A stretch of 64,000 nucleotides of DNA. It comes from Lachnospiraceae bacterium. GTDB taxonomy: Bacteria > Bacillota_A > Clostridia > Lachnospirales > Lachnospiraceae. The notes under the pieces were generated by a model. That model worked only from the letters and a program-made list of their open reading frames with translations. It was not told the DNA's origin and made no database searches. Within the stretch, counting starts at the first letter, position 1. Every line of letters starts with the position of its first letter. Positions 7,234-61,332 of this stretch are shown here, one piece after another. The DNA lies in contig JAQUUB010000008.1 in NCBI GenBank assembly GCA_028694115.1, forward strand, positions 59,813 to 123,812, in the 5' to 3' direction. A program made the position numbers and the translations under genes.

Positions 7234-8841
7234 ATGAGGATTTATAATGTGATATGTAGAATTTTTTCGATGATAATGTTGTGTATATTGTCATTTCTTT
7301 TTGTTATTTCGTTAATTAGCACTACCTATATTTCAGAGGTTGAGACAGTATATTATGTTTCTGATAGACCATATATACATTTTCTGGTGATGCTATTCGT
7401 AATCGTATGCATGTATTTTTTGAAAGACAAACTAAAACTGACTAACAAAACGATTTTTGTCATAGGCGTGATAATTACTATTGTATTAGCAATATTTATC
7501 CTTGCTTCTATGTTTTATCCCAGATTTGATCAGAGACATGTCATGAATATTGCAGCGCAGATGCTGGCTGGTGATTACACAGAGTTTAAGATAGGTGGAT
7601 ATGCAGAGATCTATCCTTATCAAAATGGTCTTTTGCTCTTTTATGAGGTTTTGGCCTTGATTTTTGGAACGAATAATTTAGTAGCGATACAGTTTATGAA
7701 TTTGTTTTTTATTATTATGGCTTACTGGGCGCTATTTTTGGTGAATAGACTTTTGATGCAAAAATACCTTTATACCGCAATGTTTACCATGCTTTTTCTG
7801 CCGCTATGGGGATTTGTAAGCCTGATTTATGGTAATGTTCCGGCGTTTTCATTTGGAATGTTTGGCTTATATTTTGCTTTGAAATTTATAAAGGATAGAA
7901 AATGGATAGAGCTACTGGCAGGGTGCGTCTGTATGATGCTTTCCTGTATACTGAAAATGAACTTTATGATTCTTCTAATTGCGATTATTATAATAACCGT
8001 TATGGATACGATTAAGAAAAAGGATTTTCGAATCCTTATCATGCCAATCGTCATGACTATTTTTGTATTGGCGGGAGATAAGGGCGTGGATTTGATCATC
8101 CATCAACAGACAGGAGCGAAAATCACAGAAGGGATTCCTGCGATTACCTATGTTGCCATGGGCCTGCATGAACATAGCTATAGGGGCGCTGGCTGGCATG
8201 ATAATTATCCGGAAAATACTTATGAACAATACAAAGGAAATGCTCAGGTAGTATCAGAGAAGGCAATGGAGGACATAAAGCTCTCATTTGAGAATTTTGA
8301 GCAGCACCCACAATATATGGTGGGCTTCTTTATCCGAAAGATTGCTTCTATGTGGAATGAACCCTCATATGACAGCCTATCCATGCAGATGGATCGAAAT
8401 TCTGTTATGGGTACGCCGCCATTTTGGATTGGAATGTTAGTGAATAAAGGCCCTGTCAATTCTTTTCTCTATCAGATTATGAATTTAATGGAGTCATGGA
8501 TCATGGTTGGCGCTTTTGCTTATTATATCTTCCATTTTAAAAAAGAAGACTTTGTGGACAATATCTTTGCTTTATTTTTCGTCGGCGGCTTTTTATGCCA
8601 TCTCCTATGGGAAGCTAGTAGTCAATACGCAATTTTCTATGTGATGCTCCTCATTCCTTACGCAACCATGGGCTTTATGGATATTGTCAATAAAATAGCT
8701 GTTACACAAAAAAAGAACCTTCTGATTTCCTTTTTTGCTGTTGCGTTTGGTATCGGCATTTTATCCATACCGGAACTGACTACGTTCCTTACATTAAACC
8801 GGAGCGATGCACTGTATTTAGAATATTTAAACATGCGATAG
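7234..8841 (+). CDS. Polytopic membrane protein, GT-C glycosyltransferase-like
   Basis: A 535-residue protein with about 12 predicted membrane helices. After the first two helices comes a large outside segment (about residues 90-130) containing FYPRFDQRHVMNIAAQ and GGYAEIYPYQNG, which resembles the acidic loop and family motifs of Firmicute GT39/ArnT-like lipid-linked sugar transferases. A role in decorating a surface polymer is inferred from the family only. It stands alone, with no other glycan gene adjacent. RBS AAGGGGA precedes the ATG. Confidence 0.65.
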   Translation: MRIYNVICRIFSMIMLCILSFLFVISLISTTYISEVETVYYVSDRPYIHFLVMLFVIVCMYFLKDKLKLTNKTIFVIGVIITIVLAIFILASMFYPRFDQRHVMNIAAQMLAGDYTEFKIGGYAEIYPYQNGLLLFYEVLALIFGTNNLVAIQFMNLFFIIMAYWALFLVNRLLMQKYLYTAMFTMLFLPLWGFVSLIYGNVPAFSFGMFGLYFALKFIKDRKWIELLAGCVCMMLSCILKMNFMILLIAIIIITVMDTIKKKDFRILIMPIVMTIFVLAGDKGVDLIIHQQTGAKITEGIPAITYVAMGLHEHSYRGAGWHDNYPENTYEQYKGNAQVVSEKAMEDIKLSFENFEQHPQYMVGFFIRKIASMWNEPSYDSLSMQMDRNSVMGTPPFWIGMLVNKGPVNSFLYQIMNLMESWIMVGAFAYYIFHFKKEDFVDNIFALFFVGGFLCHLLWEASSQYAIFYVMLLIPYATMGFMDIVNKIAVTQKKNLLISFFAVAFGIGILSIPELTTFLTLNRSDALYLEYLNMR

Positions 8842-8936
8842 ATATTCATCATTTTGTAGTAACAAACAGTCAGATTTCGCATATAATATTAGTAGGATAA
8901 CACAAAGATACATATCCTTATGAAAGGAGGGATCTT

Positions 8937-9011
8937 ATGTGTTGTTGTAGATGGTGTTGTTGTGGAAGGCGTTGTGGATGGTGTTGTTGCAGATGTTGCC
9001 GCTTCAGATAG
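8937..9011 (+). CDS. 24-residue cysteine-rich peptide
   Basis: A 24-codon ORF. Cysteines occupy positions 2-4, 7-9, 13, 16-18, 20 and 21 (12 of 24 residues), with six arginines, two tryptophans (6 and 15), two glycines and one phenylalanine between. AAAGGAGG (8923-8930) ends 6 bases before the ATG, TATAAT lies at 8882-8887, and an intrinsic terminator follows 25 bases after the TAG. This is a complete monocistronic unit. I do not recognise a family; it is not the SCIFF or lanthipeptide type. Metal binding or redox buffering is a guess from composition. An RNA-level role is the main alternative. Confidence 0.65.
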   Translation: MCCCRWCCCGRRCGWCCCRCCRFR

Positions 9012-9035
9012 TTGAATAATATTATTAATTAATAT

Positions 9036-9061
9036 AGACCGTCACTTTTTTGTGACGGTCT
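9036..9061. terminator. Bidirectional terminator, Cys-rich peptide / MFS
   Basis: AGACCGTCAC and GTGACGGTCT pair perfectly (10 bases) around a six-T loop, followed by TTCTTTCT on the plus strand. It sits between the peptide gene and the convergent MFS gene and can serve both. Confidence 0.88.
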
Positions 9062-9069
9062 TCTTTCTA

Positions 9070-10377
9070 TCATTCAGGGTTCCTCTGTAATACATAGATT
9101 TCGTTTTTCTTCTCAAGATTTCTGATTGATTTCATATTATAAAGAACAAATGATGTAATGCATAAGAGTACTCCTGCAATCATGATTAGAAATCCTCTAC
9201 CCCTTCCACTTCCGGTTCCTATAATACTCCCAACACTTCCAGCTAGAAAACCTCCTTTTATAAACAATGGTGTAAATACATAATCTGCCAATACTCCTGC
9301 TATAGAAAATGCTAGAATCTGGCCAAGCTGTGAAATCACTCCGATCATTGCCCATGCTCTTCCTTGAAGCGCATCATCAATATTTGTGCGAAGCAGATAA
9401 TCAAGACATGCATTAGCAAACGGTATCATGGCGAAGAATAAAAATCCAGAAATGGTAATCAGCACCAAATCTTCACGGAAGCCGAATCCAACCATAAAGA
9501 TTCCATCTAAAAACATGGATATGGAAAGCATCTTGACATACCCCTTCCTAACCGGCAGAAATCCAAGCAGAATACTAGATACCAGCATTCCCATGGCAAC
9601 AGCAGACTCTAGTATACCTGCAATAGCTTTCGTTGAAAATGCAAGTATCATAGGTACTGCAAGCACCTGAATAAAGCCTAAAGAAAATGTAATTAGTGAG
9701 CCCATCATAATTAATGCAAGTATCCCTCTGTTATCTGAAACTGCTTTCCAACCTTCCTTCAATTCATGGATTATGGACTTTGCCTGTTCATATTTTTTGG
9801 CAGCAATTCCGCTTCTTACTACCAGCGTTGACGTGACCGTTACAAGAAAAGTGGAAATGTCAATCATCAACAAGAGTTTGATATCTGACACTGCCAGCAA
9901 AAGTCCTGCTAGGGCAGGAGCAATTAAAAACCTAGCTGAACCTGCAATCTGAACAAGACCACTTGCTTTTGTATATTCTTCTTCTGTAAGAAGATCCGTT
10001 ACTGTTGCCTTATAGGATGGTTCCATAAGTGAAGAAAATAAAGAACTGATGGTAACTCCCACACAGATCTGCCATAACTGTGCCTCTCCCCTGAACATAC
10101 AAATTAGTATAAATAGAACACCCACTGCGGAAAGACTATCCCCTAATATCATCATAATTCTTCTATCATAGCGGTCTGCCAAGACTCCTGCAAAGACGGC
10201 CATAAAAATACCTGGCATAAACGCCAGTAACGCAACCAGGGCTGTAGCCGATGCTTTACCTGTTTGCTGAAATACATAGATCTCTAATCCAAATGCTGTT
10301 AACCCACTCCCAATAGCTGAAATTAATTCTCCTGACCACAGCAACATGAATTTATGAAATGACTTTCCTACTCTCAT
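9070..10377 (-). CDS. MFS transporter (MFS_3/EntS-like exporter)
   Basis: A 435-residue major facilitator protein with about 12 helices. The loop 2-3 signature ADRYDRRIMMILGD (near residue 66) and the N-terminal FHKFMLLWSGELISAIGSGL match the macrolide/siderophore-exporter branch. The segment near 385 (GSGRGRGF) adds a small insertion. A TetR-type palindrome lies 21 bases upstream of the start, but no TetR gene is adjacent. Substrate unknown. Confidence 0.88.
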   Translation of the reverse strand: MRVGKSFHKFMLLWSGELISAIGSGLTAFGLEIYVFQQTGKASATALVALLAFMPGIFMAVFAGVLADRYDRRIMMILGDSLSAVGVLFILICMFRGEAQLWQICVGVTISSLFSSLMEPSYKATVTDLLTEEEYTKASGLVQIAGSARFLIAPALAGLLLAVSDIKLLLMIDISTFLVTVTSTLVVRSGIAAKKYEQAKSIIHELKEGWKAVSDNRGILALIMMGSLITFSLGFIQVLAVPMILAFSTKAIAGILESAVAMGMLVSSILLGFLPVRKGYVKMLSISMFLDGIFMVGFGFREDLVLITISGFLFFAMIPFANACLDYLLRTNIDDALQGRAWAMIGVISQLGQILAFSIAGVLADYVFTPLFIKGGFLAGSVGSIIGTGSGRGRGFLIMIAGVLLCITSFVLYNMKSIRNLEKKNEIYVLQRNPE

Positions 10378-10594: not shown

Positions 10595-11950
10595 ATGAAT
10601 GAACACAACAAAAAAATGGAGCTGCTAGGGAGTGCTCCAATGCCAAAAGCTCTCTTAGCAATGGGACTTCCCACAATGATTGGTATGATGATCAGTGCAT
10701 TATACAACCTGGTAGATGCTTACTTTGTTGGTGGACTTGGAACTAGCCAGATGGGTGCTGTATCTGTTGCATTTCCACTTGGTCAGGTTGTCGTTGGGTT
10801 AGGTCTGTTATTTGGAAATGGAGCTGCATCCTATATTGCCAGATTATTAGGGAAAGGGGAAAAGGAAAAGGCAGATAAGGTTGCCAGTACTGCTCTATAT
10901 AGCAGCATTTTTGTTGGTACGGTAATAATAATAGGTACCATAATCTTTCTAAATCCGATCCTCAGACTTTTAGGTGCAACGGAAAGCATAATGCCCTATG
11001 CAGTAACTTATACGAGTATCTATGTAATTTCATCTATTTTCAACGTGTTTAATGTTACCATGAATAATATTGTTACAAGCGAAGGTGGTGCAAAAATTAC
11101 GATGTGTACGATGTTAATAGGTGCTGTAATAAATGTAATGTTAGATCCAATCTTTATCTATACTTTTGATTTAGGTGTGGCTGGTGCTGCAATCGCAACA
11201 GCTATTTCTCAAATTATTTCCACATTCGTATATCTCGTTTATATTTTTAGTAAAAAAAGTATTTTCCATTTTCGTATCAAAGAATGCTATTTTTCAAAAG
11301 AAATTATGTCAGAAATCTTAAAAATAGGGATCCCAACTTTAATATTCCAGTTATTATCAAGTCTTGCCATTGCGCTTGTAAATATGAACGCAGCAAGCTA
11401 TGGAGACTCTGTGATTGCAGGAATGGGTACTGTAACAAGAATTATTTCTTTGGGAAGTTTGATTGTATTTGGATTTATCAAAGGTTTCCAACCTATTGCC
11501 GGATATAATTACGGAGCAAAAAATTACGAACGATTGAATGAAGCAATAAAAACTTCTGTAATATGGACAACCATATTCTGCGTAATTCTTGGTTTTATAT
11601 TGATTTTATTCCCAACAGCTATCATTTCTCAATTTACCAACGGTGATACTGAATTGATACGTGTTGGTCAGAAGGCATTACGAGCAAATGGTTTATCATT
11701 TATGTTATTTGGTTTCTGTACTGTATACTCATCACTCTTTCTGGCATTGGGGAGAGCAAAAGAAGGTTGTTTTCTTGGTGTATGCAGGCAGGGTATTTGC
11801 TTTATACCAGTTATATTAATTGCTCCGATGATATGGGGAATAAATGGAATTCTGTATGCACAACCAATTGCGGATTTCATAGCAACTATCATTGCAGTAT
11901 TTATGTCCACACGTCTTTATGGGGAATTGACTACTGCAAAATCATACTAA
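10595..11950 (+). CDS. MATE family efflux transporter (MepA-like)
   Basis: A 451-residue MATE protein with 12 predicted helices (LLGSAPMPKALLAMGLPTMIGMMISALYN start, YFVGGLGTSQMGAVSVAFP, and GFIKGFQPIAGYNYGAKNYERL in the second half). It resembles the MepA/DinF-type branch. RBS AAAAGGAGTG is 8 bases before the ATG. The 180-base upstream region is very AT-rich with short dyads (for example CTATA-CTT-TATAG at 10538-10550). It is divergent from the MFS gene. Confidence 0.92.
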   Translation: MNEHNKKMELLGSAPMPKALLAMGLPTMIGMMISALYNLVDAYFVGGLGTSQMGAVSVAFPLGQVVVGLGLLFGNGAASYIARLLGKGEKEKADKVASTALYSSIFVGTVIIIGTIIFLNPILRLLGATESIMPYAVTYTSIYVISSIFNVFNVTMNNIVTSEGGAKITMCTMLIGAVINVMLDPIFIYTFDLGVAGAAIATAISQIISTFVYLVYIFSKKSIFHFRIKECYFSKEIMSEILKIGIPTLIFQLLSSLAIALVNMNAASYGDSVIAGMGTVTRIISLGSLIVFGFIKGFQPIAGYNYGAKNYERLNEAIKTSVIWTTIFCVILGFILILFPTAIISQFTNGDTELIRVGQKALRANGLSFMLFGFCTVYSSLFLALGRAKEGCFLGVCRQGICFIPVILIAPMIWGINGILYAQPIADFIATIIAVFMSTRLYGELTTAKSY

Positions 11951-12464: not shown

Positions 12465-13643
12465 TTATTTGTTGGTTAATAGTTTTTTATATGAAAATTC
12501 AATACAAAATGCACCTAGAGGTGCTGTTATCAAAATTGCTAATACCGCCACCGTCAATACAATATTCCCACAAGCAAGTCCCATTGCTAGTGGAACCCCG
12601 CCAATAGCTGCCTGAACAGTTGCTTTCGGTGTATATGCAATCATACAGAATAATCGTTCCTTTAATGTTATCTTTGTTTTTAAAAGACAGCAAAATACTC
12701 CCAGCATTCGAAACAGTAGAACACCAAAAACCAAGATAATAGCTGTGATACCAGCTGCAAGTGCATAGCTTAAATCAACCGTTGCACCAACCAAAACAAA
12801 TAATAATATTTCAGCAGCTACCCATAATTTAGAGAATTTCGAAGATAATCTGACAGCAACTACTTCTCGTTTTTTTTGTAATGCTATTCCAAGACACATA
12901 ACAGCAATCAAGCCTGAAAAAGGTACGATACCTGATAATTTGTCTTCCAATGTGACTAACATAAATGCAATACTAAGTATAATCACAATCTTTGCGGTAT
13001 CCCTTATGTGCATTACTTCGAAAAATTTTGACATACCAATTCCTATGATACAGCCTACAATTATCCCTAGAATAATCGCTATTGGAATTTGAATAAAGCT
13101 TACTAGCGAAATCTCTCCTCCTTGTGCTAATCCAGTAAATGCTGTAAACATAACAATTACAAATACATCATCTACTGATGCACCAGCTAAAATAAGTTGG
13201 GGGATTCCCTTTTCTGCACCATATCCTTCATCCATAAGTTTTAGCATCTTCGGTACAATCACTGCTGGCGAAACTGCACCTACCACAGCACCCATAATTG
13301 CAGCATCAAGCCTTGATATTCCGAGTAGCATAGGTGCAAGAATTACCATTCCGATAATCTCAAAACATGCTGGAACAAAACACATCATAACAGCCGGACG
13401 TCCAACCTTCTTTAGATCGTTTAAATCCAAAGATAATCCCGCTCTAGTTAATATAATAATCAGAGCGATCCTTCTTAATTCCGAAGAAATTCCTAAAATG
13501 GAAGGATCAATCAGATTACATACATAAGGTCCTAAAATAATACCCGTAATAATCATCCCCAAAAGGCTTGGCAATTTAATTTTATTGCACGTCCATCCAG
13601 CAGACATTCCAACCAATAAAATTAAAGCAATACTAAATAACAT
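12465..13643 (-). CDS. Cation:proton antiporter (CPA family) under fluoride riboswitch
   Basis: A 392-residue antiporter with about 12 helices. The early GMIITGIILGPYV motif, LIIILTRAGLSLDL near 85 and AVVGAVSPAVIVPKML near 140 match the Na+/H+ exchanger domain of CPA1/CPA2 proteins. The acidic pair near 177 (GASVDDVFVIV) probably carries the ion. There is no C-terminal TrkA domain. Its leader holds a fluoride aptamer, and antiporters are a known, less common class of fluoride-riboswitch gene, so a role in fluoride tolerance is inferred. Confidence 0.88.
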   Translation of the reverse strand: MLFSIALILLVGMSAGWTCNKIKLPSLLGMIITGIILGPYVCNLIDPSILGISSELRRIALIIILTRAGLSLDLNDLKKVGRPAVMMCFVPACFEIIGMVILAPMLLGISRLDAAIMGAVVGAVSPAVIVPKMLKLMDEGYGAEKGIPQLILAGASVDDVFVIVMFTAFTGLAQGGEISLVSFIQIPIAIILGIIVGCIIGIGMSKFFEVMHIRDTAKIVIILSIAFMLVTLEDKLSGIVPFSGLIAVMCLGIALQKKREVVAVRLSSKFSKLWVAAEILLFVLVGATVDLSYALAAGITAIILVFGVLLFRMLGVFCCLLKTKITLKERLFCMIAYTPKATVQAAIGGVPLAMGLACGNIVLTVAVLAILITAPLGAFCIEFSYKKLLTNK

Positions 13644-13681: not shown

Positions 13682-13762
13682 TCTGTGATATATTTTACAC
13701 AGAAGTCATCAGCTTAATAAGCGGTTTAAGTGAATCACTTTGGGAGAACCTCATTCCCTTCG
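13682..13762 (-). promoter_or_regulatory. Fluoride riboswitch (crcB motif)
   Basis: Read on the minus strand, GGGA (13758-13755) pairs with UCCC (13745-13742) around AUGAGGUUC. An extra AAGUGAUUCACUU hairpin follows, then the hallmark AAACCGCUUAUUAAGCUGAUGACUUCUG region split as AAACCGCUU...AAGCUGAUGACUUC. Loop GAGGU (13752-13748) can pair with ACUUC (13706-13702), the expected pseudoknot. A second hairpin, UCUGUG/CACAGA (13703-13698 with 13687-13682), overlaps the pseudoknot's 3' strand and is the likely expression platform. The antiporter starts 39 bases further on. Confidence 0.85.
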
Positions 13763-13777
13763 ACATTTAACAGACCT

Positions 13778-25101: not shown

Positions 25102-26049
25102 CTACACGCCTTTATTTTCTGGTAGCTCCTTTTTCCAAAGGCTGGCTGTTCTAACATTTATATCGTCATAAGTTTTATAGAAGTATTCGCAGGTATTGAT
25201 ATTAATAAATGCTGTATATTTTGTATGATCATAAGTGTTTCGGTTGGTTATGACCGCTCCCTTTGGTATTGAGACACTTTCCATGATATGAAAACATGCT
25301 GCAATTGCTTCTCTACTGTCCTTCGGTATTGGTAAGTGTTCCTTTAGATAAGCCGTTCGCACAAAGCGTTCTGGAGAAGTAAATCCACCTGGCAGAGAAA
25401 CTGTTCCTCCAGCCTGCCCAAAAGGAGTTAATCGGATATTATCCCAGCAGACTTCCTCTGTCTGTGTTGGAGACGCCTCCATGTAATTTTTTAAATTAGT
25501 CATATGCCAATGAAAGTCAGGGCTATTCGACATAACTCCAATCGGATTATTTATTAACTCCAAGCACCTACCGACAGATTCAATTACTGCACAGGCTCCA
25601 CTTCTATCAGCAACAATCCAGTGTAAAGGTGCTATCGTCTTAGTAACAGGATCTGGAGTACCTACGATAGTGATATCTTTTAACAAGTAAGTTAACTCTT
25701 TTACAGAGGCACATCTGCCCAAAATATAGTGGAGAAAATCAATCGATGCAATTGGTTCGGTGTCCTTATGAATTATCGTATCATATTGGGCATAACCGGC
25801 AAAGTATAAAACTGCAGCAGCAAAACCTTTCTCATTGACACCATCAAAAAAGCCAAGAATCCCGTCAAGCTCCTGACCAAGTCCAATCAATCGATAGGTG
25901 TTTTTAATTTTCTTATTGTTTAAGTTGCTATTCCATATATATGAATCGGGAACAATATAAAGCTGTGGGATAATGTCATGTGAAAAATCCATGGTTCTCC
26001 CAAAAAAGAACTCCTTGGATTGAGATTGTAAAGTCATTGCTGTACACAT
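25102..26049 (-). CDS. Choloylglycine hydrolase/penicillin V acylase family enzyme
   Basis: A 315-residue Ntn-hydrolase beginning MCTAMT, with Cys2 as the expected nucleophile after removal of Met1. Other family residues: Arg18 and Asp21 in GRTMDF, Asn in MSNSPDFHW (near 172) and Arg in RFVRTAYL (near 228). This family cleaves linear amides: conjugated bile salts, penicillin V or N-acyl homoserine lactones. Sequence reading alone does not say which. No signal peptide. It lies 90 bases upstream of the ClC gene. Confidence 0.9.
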   Translation of the reverse strand: MCTAMTLQSQSKEFFFGRTMDFSHDIIPQLYIVPDSYIWNSNLNNKKIKNTYRLIGLGQELDGILGFFDGVNEKGFAAAVLYFAGYAQYDTIIHKDTEPIASIDFLHYILGRCASVKELTYLLKDITIVGTPDPVTKTIAPLHWIVADRSGACAVIESVGRCLELINNPIGVMSNSPDFHWHMTNLKNYMEASPTQTEEVCWDNIRLTPFGQAGGTVSLPGGFTSPERFVRTAYLKEHLPIPKDSREAIAACFHIMESVSIPKGAVITNRNTYDHTKYTAFININTCEYFYKTYDDINVRTASLWKKELPENKGV

Positions 26050-26146
26050 ATAGAAACATCCTTCAAAATGATATTTTTATAGTATATGAAAATCAACAAT
26101 GCATGTGAAAGCCCGTGGAAAAGCTATTATATACCGTGTGACGATA

Positions 26147-53287: not shown

Positions 53288-53414
53288 TCTCCTTTCATTA
53301 CTAACTTTCCTACTGTAATATGCTTAAATTTTAACATACTAAAGTCCTAAAGTAAATAGAAACATTTACGTAATTAATACATATACTACAGTACTAATAT
53401 TTTAGGAGGGCTTT

Positions 53415-54425
53415 ATGAAAAAGAAAATTTTATCACTGACTCTTATTTTGATACTTGTAGTCCTATCATTAATTGGATGCCAATATCAAAGCAAAACCAA
53501 GAGTACAAAAGGATCAACTAAGGTAGTACTTAATGAAGTAGCTCACTCCATCTTCTATGCTCCCATGTATGTAGCAATAGAAAGTGGCTATTTTGCTGAA
53601 GAAGGACTTGATGTTGAGCTTGTAACAGGATACGGTGCAGATAAAACAATGACAGCTTTACTTTCTGGCGAAGCAGATATCGGTTTCATGGGTGCAGAAG
53701 CTTCTATTTATACTTATCTTGGCGGTGCACAAGATTATGCAGTAAACTTTGCACAGCTAACACAACGTGCTGGTAATTTCCTTGTTGCTCGTGAGCCTAT
53801 GGAGAGCTTCGATTGGAGTATGTTAAAGGGCAAACAAGTATTAGGTGGCCGCGCTGGCGGTATGCCCGAAATGGTATTTGAATACATTTTAAAAAATAAT
53901 GGACTAGATCCAAAAGCTGATTTGTCCATCGATCAATCCATTGATTTTGGTTCCACAGCTGCAGCATTCTCTGGAGGTCAAGGTGATTTCACCGTAGAAT
54001 TTGAGCCAGGTGCCACTGCCCTTGAAACCAAGGGGGATGGCTATATAGTGGCTTCACTTGGAGTTGACTCAGGTTATGTTCCCTATACAGCATTTTGTGC
54101 AAAGAAAAGCTTTATAGAAGAGAATAATGATGTAATCACATCTTTTACCAAAGGACTCCAAAAAGGTATGGATTATGTAGCATCGCATACTCCTGAGGAA
54201 ATTTCAATCATCATTCAACCTCAGTTTGCTGAAACAGATTATGAAACCATTGTGACAATTGTAAACCGCTATTATGAACAGGATACATGGAAACAGAACT
54301 TAGTCTTTGAAGAAAGCAGCTTCGAACTACTTCAAAATATTTTAGAATCTGCTGGTGAATTAGATAAGCGTGCTCCATATGCTGAACTCGTAACTACTGA
54401 TTTTGCAAAAGAAGCAGCAAAATAA
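53415..54425 (+). CDS. ABC transporter substrate-binding lipoprotein (NMT1/SsuA-like)
   Basis: A 336-residue lipoprotein with a signal peptide and a lipobox (LSLIGC, Cys22). The NMT1/THI5 fold is clear: LNEVAHSIFYAPMYVAIESGYFAEEGLDVELV and GYGADKTMTALLSGEADIGFMGAE. The family binds thiamine precursors, sulfonates, nitrate or similar small molecules. No permease or ATPase gene is beside it in this window, so it is an orphan here. It is followed by its own terminator. Confidence 0.92.
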   Translation: MKKKILSLTLILILVVLSLIGCQYQSKTKSTKGSTKVVLNEVAHSIFYAPMYVAIESGYFAEEGLDVELVTGYGADKTMTALLSGEADIGFMGAEASIYTYLGGAQDYAVNFAQLTQRAGNFLVAREPMESFDWSMLKGKQVLGGRAGGMPEMVFEYILKNNGLDPKADLSIDQSIDFGSTAAAFSGGQGDFTVEFEPGATALETKGDGYIVASLGVDSGYVPYTAFCAKKSFIEENNDVITSFTKGLQKGMDYVASHTPEEISIIIQPQFAETDYETIVTIVNRYYEQDTWKQNLVFEESSFELLQNILESAGELDKRAPYAELVTTDFAKEAAK

Positions 54426-56690: not shown

Positions 56691-58985
56691 TCACCTGTTC
56701 TTTTTCTCAATATATAACAATTCATCTGCTTCATCAATCATTGCCTTTAACTCAATACCTTTTCGGTACTCAAATTCTCTCATGCCAATTGATAGCTGTA
56801 CTTCAAAAGGTTTCTGATGCTTCTCATTAACAAGTTTTGTAATACCATCGATTCGTTTACGCAATTGCTTGATTTTATCGGCACTATCGAATCTCAAAAT
56901 CACAGCAAATTCATCACCACCGATTCGGCCAACAATTGCATTTCCAACGCAAGCTTCTTTTAAAATATCTGCACAACACCGAATTGCGAAATCTCCCTCA
57001 TCATGTCCATATGTATCATTTATCGTCTTTAGTTTGTCCATATCTGCATAGCAAACCAGGAATATTTTCCCTTCATTATCACTTCGATTCAATAATTCTT
57101 CTGCATACTGATAGAAACCACGACGATTATAGATTCCCGTCAACTCATCCATTTTTGAAATCGTACCTAATTCAATATTATGAGCCTGTAAGCGCTCTAA
57201 GCTCTCTTCTAACTTTTTTTGCGTACTTCGCTGCAACTGGAAATGATTAAGTGTACGAACAGCCAGACTCAACTGATATGTCAAATATTCAACGTAGTGT
57301 AAATAATCATATTTAATATCGCATATATAAAGACCATATTGAAGATTTTGATCATAGACATCCAGAACAAGATAGGTAAATCGATCCTCTCTCTCAAAAA
57401 AAGGATTATCACACATCTGATGCGTAGATATTTTTTGGTCTGTCCTTGGTATCGAAAAGACCTGATTTCCTTTCTGATATGCCTTTAATAATATATTTTC
57501 GGGTGGAATCCATGTCATGTCACGATTATGTTCCACGGGCTTTTCCCATACATAGAGATAACTGTTTTTAATATCTAGTGTATCTACTTTTTCGAGAGCA
57601 TTTGCATAGCTTTGTTCTGTCTCATCACTAAACATCAAAATGTCTCTGGTAATCCGATTCGTTATATGATACATTTCAAAATGCTGTTTTTCAGAAATAA
57701 CGAGCTCTATACTCATCCATTCAACAACTTTTTGTTCAAATTTTTCTTGAAGCGTGTGGAGTTCTAATCGCTGCGTTAATATCTTATTTCTTTCGCAGAA
57801 TATCTGATATATGGTATAAAATACTTGAAAAATTTTTCTAGAATCTACATATAACATAACACCACGTTCTACCATATTGTCAAAATAAGTATAAAGATCG
57901 TCTGTGGAATTTCTCTTTATAATATTATCGAAATATCTGGAAAGAAGTTTTTGAAAAAAAGTCCAAAGTACTTTCCTTTGACACTCAGCCTGATAATCAT
58001 GGTTAATATCCCGAAATACAAACTCAGTAACATTATCACATATGGCTTTCACATCAATCGAATTCTCTACTTCATCTTCAAATTTTCCAATTAATTCGTG
58101 CATATCAAAGGATTTAAATCCTACGGATTCTCTTTTAATAAATTTTGTTTTCAAAATTTTATGTATCTGTTTCTTACTTTCTAACATTTCTAAAATTGTA
58201 CAGACTGCTTCATATCCTAAATCAGATGCATCTGCACGTACCGTAGCGAGTGGTGGATTCATCTTAACACTATCAGGTACATCATCAAATCCAAGTACAG
58301 CAATATCTTTTCCTACTCGAATACCTCTTTTACTCAATGTCTCATAAACACCCTTAGCAGTGTCGTCGTTCGCACAAACGATTGCCTCTATATCCGGATT
58401 ACGATTTAATAATAGTTCTACTTTTTCTGTGCATTCTTTTGTAAAATCACCATGAACAATTAATTGATCATCAACAGCAATCCCATGTTCAATAAGTGAT
58501 TCTTTATATGCCTCCAAGCGTTCTTCTGCATCTTCATTTGTAATGGTACCAGCTATCAAACCAATTTTACGTAATCCCTGTACTGTAATTAAATAATCAA
58601 TACCTTCTTTAATACCTGTAATATTATCATACTGAATGCTAGAATATCCAGATTCCTTAGATGCAACCGATAGAATTGGAACCCCATTCGTATTCTTTAG
58701 AAATTTATCTTTCACTTCAAAATGTGCCTGACTGCAAATACTACCTACGCATGATACTAAACCATCAATACTCTCAGGATAGCAATAAGAGAACAAAGTG
58801 TTATATTGGTACTCATATAACATTTTAATATCATCTTCTTCATATCGGCGAAGATATTTTCCAGGAAAGATAATAAGATTTATATTTTTTTCTTCTGCTG
58901 CCATATAAGCTCCACGACAAATTGAATTACAAAAAACATCTTCTACATTTGCTACAAATAGTCCTATCGTTTTTCTTTGACCCAT
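56691..58985 (-). CDS. LacI-type ligand-binding domain fused to GGDEF (no HTH, no I-site)
   Basis: A 764-residue cytoplasmic protein. Residues 1-275 are a LacI/RbsB-like sugar-binding domain (KTIGLFVANVEDVFCNSICRGAYMAAEE; FDDVPDSVKMNPPLATVRAD) without the DNA-binding HTH and without a signal peptide. A helical middle region (about 290-590) contains no clear motif. A GGDEF domain follows (about 600-764, MDELTGIYNRRGF, GRIGGDEFAVIL), so it can probably make c-di-GMP. The residues at the usual RxxD inhibitory site are VGNA, so product inhibition may be lost. Tandem with a paralog. Confidence 0.9.
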   Translation of the reverse strand: MGQRKTIGLFVANVEDVFCNSICRGAYMAAEEKNINLIIFPGKYLRRYEEDDIKMLYEYQYNTLFSYCYPESIDGLVSCVGSICSQAHFEVKDKFLKNTNGVPILSVASKESGYSSIQYDNITGIKEGIDYLITVQGLRKIGLIAGTITNEDAEERLEAYKESLIEHGIAVDDQLIVHGDFTKECTEKVELLLNRNPDIEAIVCANDDTAKGVYETLSKRGIRVGKDIAVLGFDDVPDSVKMNPPLATVRADASDLGYEAVCTILEMLESKKQIHKILKTKFIKRESVGFKSFDMHELIGKFEDEVENSIDVKAICDNVTEFVFRDINHDYQAECQRKVLWTFFQKLLSRYFDNIIKRNSTDDLYTYFDNMVERGVMLYVDSRKIFQVFYTIYQIFCERNKILTQRLELHTLQEKFEQKVVEWMSIELVISEKQHFEMYHITNRITRDILMFSDETEQSYANALEKVDTLDIKNSYLYVWEKPVEHNRDMTWIPPENILLKAYQKGNQVFSIPRTDQKISTHQMCDNPFFEREDRFTYLVLDVYDQNLQYGLYICDIKYDYLHYVEYLTYQLSLAVRTLNHFQLQRSTQKKLEESLERLQAHNIELGTISKMDELTGIYNRRGFYQYAEELLNRSDNEGKIFLVCYADMDKLKTINDTYGHDEGDFAIRCCADILKEACVGNAIVGRIGGDEFAVILRFDSADKIKQLRKRIDGITKLVNEKHQKPFEVQLSIGMREFEYRKGIELKAMIDEADELLYIEKKNR

Positions 58986-59013
58986 ATACAATCCCCACTT
59001 TATATAAGTTTGT

Positions 59014-61332
59014 TTATCTTTTCAGTACATTTCTATCTTTATGGCGCTTTTCTTCGTAAAGATTAACATCTGCTTTTTCAAGCACATCTTGTATTTGGAT
59101 ATCATTATTACATATAAACTCATAAGTACCCACTGTAAGTCTAATATAATATGGTTTTGCACATCTCTCATTTAGGTCATCTGAAATATCCTTAATACGC
59201 ATTTTTACAGAATCAATATTATTTCCATGTTCTAATATCATGATTGCAGCAAATTCATCCCCACCAATACGTCCAATAATATCATTTGAACGAAATGAAT
59301 TCTTAAGAATTTCACCAATATTTTCTAAAGCAAAATCTCCATCATCATGTCCAAAGCTATCATTAATTATTTTTAAATTGTCCATATCAGCATAAAAAAC
59401 AACTGCACATTTTCCTTGATTTTCCTGAGCAGTTATCATTTGTTCTGCATTACGTAAAAAACCCCTTCGGTTTAACAAACCCGTAAGTTCATCTGATTTT
59501 GATATGGTATCAAGCTTTTTGTTACTTTCTTTAATTTTCAAAAAGCTCTCTTCTAGTTTTTCTACCATTTTATCGCGCGTTTGTAGCAGATAGATTACTT
59601 TAATGGCTGCACTGATTTGATATGTAAGTTTTTCAACATAATGATAGTATTCTGGTCGATATTCACATAAGAATAATCCAAACTGTTCATCATTGGAAAA
59701 AAGAGTGGACAATACTAAAGTATACCGACGGTTTCTAGGTAAATACGCATTATGAAAAATATTGTTTGTCTTCATTTTTTGAGCCTTTTCTGGTTGAATA
59801 AATACATCTTCTCCGCGCTGGTAAGTTTTTAAATAGGTATATTCAGGAGCTTTCCATATTTGATTTCTCTGGTGTTTGATAGGCTTTTCAAACATATATA
59901 AATAACTACTTTCAATATTCAATAATTTCATTTTCTCAAGAATGACTCCATAGCTTTCATTCTCTCCCTTGTCAAAACTAATCATATCTCTAGTAATTGT
60001 ATTCGTTATATTATTTAAATCTTGCAATGTAGATTGATAATTTAAAGAAGTAGCTGCCATCTTGTATGCAATTTTTCGATAGCCCTCTGCAAATACTGAT
60101 GATAAAAGAATTTTCTTATCTTCTCTCTTGATTTTAGAAAAAAGAATATTATAGAAGATATCCATTATGTGAAAGGCTTTATCTAATTCTGTATGAATTA
60201 ATATATTCTCATTCAAAAGTTCGTAAAAATATCTTCTTAAATCTTCTGTTTTTGAAATATCCTCTTTTTCCGTAATAAAAATATCAACAACTAATTCTAA
60301 TACCTGTGCTAATTCATTCTTAATAGATTGTATTTTTTTATCACCTTCAAATTGATCAAATAAAAAGGAATTGATTCCTTTTACTATTTCATCAAAATTA
60401 TCCTCAGATGAAAATTTTCGACCGATCAGTTTCTCTAATTCTCCCGCATCACTTGGTCCTTCCTGGCAAGAATTTCTTAAGATGAATTTAGAATTAATAT
60501 AGGGATTGCGTTTTTTCTCTCCGCACAAAATTGCATATCCCTCTTTAATAGCACGATAACCAAGTTCTTCTGCATCTGCACGAACAGTGGATAAATTAGG
60601 GGTCATACGAATAGCGAATTCCGAGTCATCAAAACCGATCACAGAAATATCTTTTCCAACTTCAATTCCTCGTTCTCTAAAAACATTGTATCCAGCTACT
60701 GCCATATGGTCATTTGAAAAAACTACAGCTTCTAAATCATCATTATCATCAAGTAATTTTCTAACAGCATCCTCACTCCAGTAAGTAAAATTTCCATGAA
60801 CAATTTTACGTTCCTCTATCGGAATATTATTCTCTTGTAGTACTCTTTTATAAACGTCTAATCTTGCATCTGCATCTTCATTTGTTAATGGACCAGCGAC
60901 AAAACCAATTTTTTGTTTTCCCAGAGATTTGATTAGATATTCGATTCCTTCTCTAAGACCAGTCTCATTGTCAAACGAAACAAAATCATGTCCCCCTACC
61001 CTTGATGCAATTGTAAGAATGGGAATCCCTGTGTATGTTTTCAGCATTTCTTCTTTCTTACTTTGTGAAAGTGTCATTGCTGAATCACCCATACATGCAA
61101 CAATTAAATCTACATTCTCCTTCATTGCATAGGAAAACAACGTATTATGCTGATATTCATATTCCACGCCTTTATCCTGAATGATATTAGAATCAATATA
61201 TTTACCGGGAAAAATAACTAAATTGGCATCAATTTCCTCTGCAGCTGGCACTGCACCCTTACAGACTTGATTACTAAAAACATCCTCCAAATTTGCTACT
61301 ATAAGCCCAATCGTTAATCTCTTTTTTTCCAT
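59014..61332 (-). CDS. LacI-type ligand-binding domain fused to GGDEF (paralog, with I-site)
   Basis: A 772-residue paralog of the next gene with the same layout: LacI-like ligand domain (about 1-275, LTIGLIVANLEDVFSNQVCKG; VIGFDDSEFAIRMTPNLSTVRAD), middle helical region, GGDEF (about 605-770, SDELTGLLNRRGFLRN, GRIGGDEFAAIM). It keeps RSND five residues before GGDEF, the RxxD inhibitory site, unlike its neighbour. Neither protein has a membrane anchor, so ligand sensing is cytoplasmic. It lies 28 bases upstream of its paralog on the same strand. Confidence 0.9.
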   Translation of the reverse strand: MEKKRLTIGLIVANLEDVFSNQVCKGAVPAAEEIDANLVIFPGKYIDSNIIQDKGVEYEYQHNTLFSYAMKENVDLIVACMGDSAMTLSQSKKEEMLKTYTGIPILTIASRVGGHDFVSFDNETGLREGIEYLIKSLGKQKIGFVAGPLTNEDADARLDVYKRVLQENNIPIEERKIVHGNFTYWSEDAVRKLLDDNDDLEAVVFSNDHMAVAGYNVFRERGIEVGKDISVIGFDDSEFAIRMTPNLSTVRADAEELGYRAIKEGYAILCGEKKRNPYINSKFILRNSCQEGPSDAGELEKLIGRKFSSEDNFDEIVKGINSFLFDQFEGDKKIQSIKNELAQVLELVVDIFITEKEDISKTEDLRRYFYELLNENILIHTELDKAFHIMDIFYNILFSKIKREDKKILLSSVFAEGYRKIAYKMAATSLNYQSTLQDLNNITNTITRDMISFDKGENESYGVILEKMKLLNIESSYLYMFEKPIKHQRNQIWKAPEYTYLKTYQRGEDVFIQPEKAQKMKTNNIFHNAYLPRNRRYTLVLSTLFSNDEQFGLFLCEYRPEYYHYVEKLTYQISAAIKVIYLLQTRDKMVEKLEESFLKIKESNKKLDTISKSDELTGLLNRRGFLRNAEQMITAQENQGKCAVVFYADMDNLKIINDSFGHDDGDFALENIGEILKNSFRSNDIIGRIGGDEFAAIMILEHGNNIDSVKMRIKDISDDLNERCAKPYYIRLTVGTYEFICNNDIQIQDVLEKADVNLYEEKRHKDRNVLKR

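Follow-up and report, generated by a model that had tools for sequence, protein, structure and literature searches.

Cysteine-rich proteins build and harden the envelopes of bacterial spores, and those sized in the papers cited here range from about 100 to 400 residues. The Clostridioides difficile protein CD1067 (CdeC) is a cysteine-rich, sigma-K dependent protein of the spore surface, whose assemblies depend partly on disulfides (PMC3738446, PMC7677010, PMC6101409); CdeM is another cysteine-rich protein of the outer spore layers in this species (PMC6101409, PMC7677010). The cysteine-rich CotY and ExsY of Bacillus form lattices in the outer spore layers (PMC4950064) and, like CsxA of Clostridium sporogenes, build a disulfide cross-linked spore envelope; the authors of the CsxA report propose a common strategy for unrelated cysteine-rich proteins of many spore formers (PMC7333573). 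The subject is of relevance to gut commensals, which rely on spores to pass from one host to another.

The locus studied here lies in a 64-kb stretch of DNA from a Lachnospiraceae bacterium (hereafter the window, meaning the whole stretch analyzed). It contains a forward-strand ORF at 8937-9011 (codons 8937-9008, stop TAG 9009-9011), and translation bears out the 24 codons with 12 Cys, 6 Arg and 2 Trp reported in an earlier note on this DNA; the predicted peptide, MCCCRWCCCGRRCGWCCCRCCRFR, also holds 2 Gly. The very high cysteine content that characterizes the functional class of cysteine-rich spore-surface proteins is present in this ORF (12/24) and is far beyond chance. In first-order Markov simulations (20 sequences, each 64 kb long) the maximum per 24 codons was 5-7 Cys, while the runner-up among the 24-codon stop-free stretches of the window (six frames, non-overlapping with the ORF) holds 7. 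Both TGT and TGC are used among the last Cys codons, and the ORF is therefore not a pure TGT repeat. The strong ribosome-binding site claimed in the earlier note was located as AAAGGAGG at 8923-8930 (+), 6 nt before the ATG at 8937. The bidirectional terminator claimed there corresponds to an inverted repeat at 9036-9061 (10 pairs, 6 of them G-C), which is terminator-like on both strands and would serve as a common intrinsic terminator for the ORF and a convergent MFS gene; the region 8700-9200 contains two terminator-like sites against a shuffle mean of 0.2. Promoter, ribosome-binding site, ORF and terminator are all present, and the proposal that a tiny cysteine-rich peptide has a transcription unit of its own is supported. 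We consider the 24-codon unit a real and probably functional micro-gene, an extreme form of a known functional kind.

Compared with the described systems, the peptide differs mainly in scale. CdeC (405 aa), CdeM (161 aa) and CdeA (11.4 kDa) contain 8-9% Cys, whereas the window peptide has 24 residues and 50% Cys. The likeness consists in cysteine richness, a place at the spore surface (presumed in the case of the peptide) and origin in another member of the Clostridia, but the repeats NPC, CCRQGKGK and RREA are absent from the peptide and it shows no DUF1540 match. CdeC and CdeM are reported not to be present in Lachnospiraceae (PMC6101409). CsxA and CotY/ExsY are also larger and lattice-tiling (15 of the 161 residues of CotY are Cys), whereas a peptide of 24 residues would be unlikely to tile and could at most cross-link or cap. 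Since the peptide gave zero Pfam or NCBIfam matches up to E 10, membership of the CdeC, CsxA or CotY families, as compared via these models, is not supported. The best-supported reading by analogy is that the peptide would work like these proteins without being homologous to them.

Regarding transcription, an AC at 8862-8863 (+), matching a sigma-K-type -35 element, stands exactly 16 nt before CATATAATA at 8880-8888 (+), a -10 element of the CATANNNTA type. The features of the sigma-K promoter class, i.e., a -35 AC and a -10 CATA...TA about 16-17 nt apart according to the C. difficile consensus, are found here, and the sigK P2 promoter of C. difficile itself has CATATAAT as -10 and AC as -35 (PMC3789822). 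The AC-16-CATATAATA layout is also compatible with the computed sigma-K motif of B. subtilis, in which 14-16 nt separate a -35 element of 5 nt from a -10 element of 10 nt (PMC517825). The TATAAT box of the earlier note is indeed present at 8882-8887, but it lies within CATATAATA, and these elements favour a promoter of the sigma-K type (late mother-cell sporulation) over a plain TATAAT box. The sigma factor is not settled by sequence alone, because a sigma-A promoter, GTAACA-17-TATAAT, fits the same bases (10/12 match in a sigma-70-type reading); promoter-like sites around the ORF are no commoner than in shuffles (3 vs 2.5). Throughout the window, AC at 16/17 accompanies 4 of the 56 CATANNNTA sites. 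Three of these four sit 35-57 nt before a same-strand gene start, namely those at 8880 (this ORF), 26088 (-) (a choloylglycine-hydrolase-family gene) and 53380 (+) (an NMT1/THI5-like gene), while the fourth (61482) is inside a gene. The AC-16-CATANNNTA motif at 26049-26106 (-) lies 39 nt before the choloylglycine-hydrolase-family gene, and the one at 53362-53415 (+) lies 35 nt before the NMT1/THI5-like binding-protein gene. Beside these two sites may be placed L269, a gene of G275 that is similar at its N-terminus, has an open frame of 101 aa at that locus and shows the same layout; by PcrA, G275 is the closest relative of the window (77%) among 397 family genomes.

The earlier note had named a lack of conservation of the Cys pattern or the ribosome-binding site in close relatives as a refuting outcome, and the answer was divided: the exact spacing was found in no other genome searched, while a wider pattern recurs. 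The sequences searched yielded no orthologue of the 24-aa peptide. A search for the CCCRWCCC pattern across genome contigs returned at least 119 loci. Of the 126 matches listed, 125 fall within another frame of at least 100 codons or on the strand facing one, the exception being L068 at a locus edge, and they are therefore read as frame shadows. Among these listed matches, 43 start-codon ORFs of at most 80 aa and at least 25% Cys could be drawn in 30 loci, and no promoter of the sigma-K type lies within 220 nt of any of them; one candidate preceded by a ribosome-binding site (L085) was rejected as embedded in a 370-codon ORF of another frame. Protein searches with the peptide found nothing in 48 genomes, although an empty answer of such a search shows little, and neither tblastn against plasmids nor a search of viral contigs gave any match. 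When 8870-9070 was used in blastn, 14 plasmid records and the best 20 of 26 phage records contained only pieces covering at most 20%. The best of these plasmid and phage pieces, from Lachnospira eligens (E 4e-3), is intergenic by annotation, holds no ORF of 12-80 aa with a ribosome-binding site and 25% Cys, and was rejected. The intergenic DNA of the window has no convincing conserved copy in G275 (best E 0.228). The DNA of the peptide matched G048 (E 4e-4, corresponding to L187) and contig C22 of G349 (E 9e-4); the latter match (L273, near 90057) was discarded as a low-complexity repeat stretch without promoter. One frame of L273 reads 40 Cys in 73 residues, a trap for searches of Cys-rich ORFs. 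Homology of the peptide to L187, L186, L181, L180, L178 and P0050 was also rejected, the alignments being no better than composition (83-883 of 1000 shuffles were as good against the longer Cys-rich proteins). Given that composition explains the alignments, kinship with these longer proteins is claimed at the level of design only. At the level of titles and beginnings of abstracts, the literature yielded nothing on a short Cys-rich sigma-K spore peptide of Lachnospiraceae, which leaves absence unproven.

The wider pattern, consisting of a sigma-K-type promoter, a strong ribosome-binding site, an MCC or MCCC start and Cys blocks, does recur in other genomes. In 145 relatives, 19 sites came from a search for GGAG followed by MCCC in which no promoter was required. 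Two of these are real Cys-rich proteins, both longer than the peptide, both in G048 and both behind AC-16/17-CATANNNTA. A second pattern combined CATANNNTA, then GGAG, then ATG-Cys-Cys; it thus imposed the -10 match, GGAG and MCC but left AC free. It returned 12 sites in 11 of the 397 family genomes and 9 sites in 9 of 321 class genomes; these sets overlap and have one site in common, giving 20 distinct sites. Twelve of them are stand-alone low-complexity ORFs (L176, L178-L182, L186, L187, L191-L193, L195), and the other eight are internal methionines of long genes or ORFs of at most 18 aa. AC at 16/17 is present in front of all 12 stand-alone ORFs and of none of the other eight sites. Ten of the 12 measure 69-137 aa, one 38 aa and one (L178, MCCFFGCRRRRRRCRNRF) 18 aa, and their Cys content is 16-25% in ten cases, 6% in L182 and 3% in L193. 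A promoter-blind split (ORF of at least 35 aa, not an internal methionine) gave AC in 11/11 vs 1/9 sites (Fisher p 7e-5), or 9/9 vs 1/8 with orthologue pairs merged (Fisher p 4e-4), a split that was chosen after the hits had been seen, with counts entered by hand, and which groups the 18-aa L178 with the remaining sites. Separation of the hits was weak when stand-alone ORFs were picked automatically by the length of the ORFs next to them (8/9 vs 4/11, p 0.03).

A third pattern, again without promoter, gave 39 sites in 368 genomes, of which 38 were re-read, the 39th being L186, also with the promoter. AC-16/17-CATANNNTA was found within 220 nt of four of the re-read sites, L205, L208 and L210 (14-25% Cys) and L215 (6%). 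Possibly stand-alone but without promoter are L206 (126 aa, 6% Cys), L207 (112 aa, 4%), L211 (25 aa, 20%) and L196 (118 aa, 13%), the last of which faces a frame of 429 codons. The promoter of L205 was found only after the upstream search had been widened from 110 to 220 nt; this 132-aa Cys-rich ORF has its sigma-K-type promoter about 175 nt upstream and hence a long leader. In five proteins (L181, L187, L179, L180 and P0050) the Cys blocks are followed by a C-terminal GFxxGYxxGFxDG-like stretch, with a sigma-K-type promoter in four loci. None of the curated families matched these four loci past its cut-off, with weak Yae1_N hits below it, and homologous-protein searches found nothing for L181 and one relative, P0050, for L187 (E 3.5e-6). 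The 12 stand-alone ORFs and L205 resemble the 24-aa peptide in promoter layout and low complexity, whereas they are mostly 38-137 aa long with Gly/Asn/Ser linkers, some carry the C-terminal stretch that the peptide lacks, and there is no alignable homology.

The sporulation potential of the hosts was assessed with the sigma-K model TIGR02846 (curated cut-off 298.65 bits) in nine genomes and 14 controls including B. subtilis. No genome or control passed, B. subtilis included, and most controls give weak hits. G275 and 5 of the 7 family genomes in which the second pattern found stand-alone ORFs have one hit of 285-293 bits (291.7 bits for the best match in G275, under the cut-off) and a second of 243-253 bits. 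Because none passed the cut-off, controls included, the 285-293-bit group is read as sigma-K by rank. In G370 and G207 the 243-253-bit hit is accompanied by a sigma-K-like gene in two pieces, so that sigK-like sequence is present in all seven carrier genomes of the family search, the search from which the tested carriers were taken. The two pieces lie about 4.2 kb apart in G370 (C2:984631-989406), possibly through a skin-like insertion, and are adjacent in G207 (C46:11581-12188). G081, which ranks first among 299 genomes in its match to the gene upstream of the ORF, has only weak hits to the model (best 69.9 bits). No sporulation genes were recognized in the 64-kb window, and we infer from G275 that the window strain sporulates. 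G275 has 64 promoter-pattern sites (32 in a reversed-pattern control), of which 37 were inspected and those with AC at 16/17 kept. Among the kept sites there is only one Cys-rich gene, L235 (112 aa, 22 Cys, starting MSEL), behind AC-16-CATAGTATA. Other such promoters among the 37 of 64 sites inspected precede genes resembling YlmC/YmxH and a LysM hydrolase of the SleL/YaaH type, but also ordinary genes.

The layout is thus associated with small Cys-rich proteins in relatives that hold sigK-like sequence. Late sporulation and a structural disulfide role are preferred because the promoter type and its company point there, and we put at roughly 60% the probability that the ORF is a one-gene unit of late mother-cell sporulation, encoding a sigma-K-driven spore-envelope peptide that cross-links by disulfides. 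RNA polymerase with sigma-K would read AC-16-CATATAATA into a short mRNA for the 24-residue Arg/Trp/Cys peptide, which would be made in the mother cell and bind the developing spore via its cationic and aromatic residues. It would then be oxidised into intermolecular disulfides, perhaps only when the spore meets oxygen, and could act as a small multivalent thiol cross-linker ("staple") or cap in the coat or outer envelope. If true, a half-cysteine sigma-K-type gene of 24 residues would show how little protein suffices to take part in such an envelope.

The metal- or redox-active peptide suggested in the earlier note would be, in growing cells, a metallothionein-like or thiol redox peptide transcribed with sigma-A from GTAACA-17-TATAAT. 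Twelve cysteines in 24 residues could bind soft metals and the sigma-70-type match of 10/12 agrees with this reading, but no metal gene was recognized alongside (by eye, and by scanning the two flanking proteins) and AC-16/17-CATANNNTA fronts Cys-rich ORFs in relatives with a sigK-like gene. We therefore judge it unlikely; its vegetative setting is not supported, since promoter type and company indicate late sporulation, while the peptide may still bind metal.

Folding of the leader bears on another alternative. A predicted 5' hairpin at 8896-8946 (+), assuming a transcription start near 8895, would pair the ribosome-binding site and the start codon. The leader 8895-8952 folds at -17.6 kcal/mol (z -3.55 and -3.98 in two runs), the strongest z of 12 leaders folded (the other 11 lie between -0.91 and 1.46), and z drops to -1.14 and -1.76 once longer stretches are folded. 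As folded, this hairpin would hinder translation of the ORF, and it may represent either a translational gate or switch, or a sign of poor translation. The latter would suit a small RNA that is not translated, or an ORF kept silent by the 5' hairpin, with the peptide being incidental, a reading also favoured by the folding of the whole transcript (z -4.34, terminator included). Nevertheless, the ribosome-binding site is strong and well spaced, the Cys content is far beyond chance, MCC ORFs recur behind the same promoter, folding of the ORF by itself does not surpass that of shuffles (z 0.35) and there is no Rfam match at the gathering threshold, all of which make this reading quite improbable.

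The neighbouring genes also weigh on the interpretation. Upstream on the same strand lies a 535-aa membrane protein (7234-8841) without Pfam match, many relatives of which carry PF13231, a glycosyltransferase family. The three homologues of this protein with a stated organism come from 'Lachnospiraceae bacterium', in line with the lineage of the window. The downstream gene at 9070-10377 (-) is convergent and encodes an MFS transporter according to the Pfam/NCBIfam scan. No plausible co-directional gene was found close behind the ORF, the next plausible plus-strand gene in the ORF list starting at 10595. Cys codon runs directly before an intrinsic terminator would be expected of a regulatory leader ORF, in which they sense cysteinyl-tRNA and set terminator read-through (attenuation), yet the gene after the terminator is convergent, there is none to regulate nearby and the terminator stem is clear of the hairpins predicted for the ORF, so that such attenuation is very unlikely. 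The precursor of a ribosomally made natural product (a RiPP, SCIFF included, or a bacteriocin) would also be short, Cys-rich and stand-alone, but such a role is hardly to be expected, since the peptide has no NCBIfam match and no leader/core division and the two flanking proteins match neither a RiPP-type nor a maturase family.

Returning to the sporulation reading, its extension to other genomes is more tentative and, in our estimate, falls somewhat short of even odds. Sigma-K-driven poly-cysteine microproteins may constitute a hitherto unnoticed, fast-evolving class in spore formers of the Lachnospiraceae and other Clostridia, ranging from about 140 down to 24 or 18 aa and serving as diffusible disulfide "staples" of the spore envelope, among which the window peptide, half of it cysteine, would stand at the extreme and might be gated in translation by its 5' hairpin. 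If true, this would point to a group of genes that annotation tends to miss on account of their shortness or low complexity. The promoter-plus-MCC pattern offers a direct way to list them.

Finally, two further features of the window were observed. A fluoride riboswitch at 13693-13767 (-) scores 48.5 bits (gathering threshold 34) and lies just upstream of a gene at 12465-13643 (-) that, judged by eye, is cation/proton-antiporter-like. Two adjacent similar genes at 56691-58991 and 59014-61332 (-), also judged by eye, each resemble a fusion of GGDEF with a sensor of the LacI type and have apparently arisen by tandem duplication.
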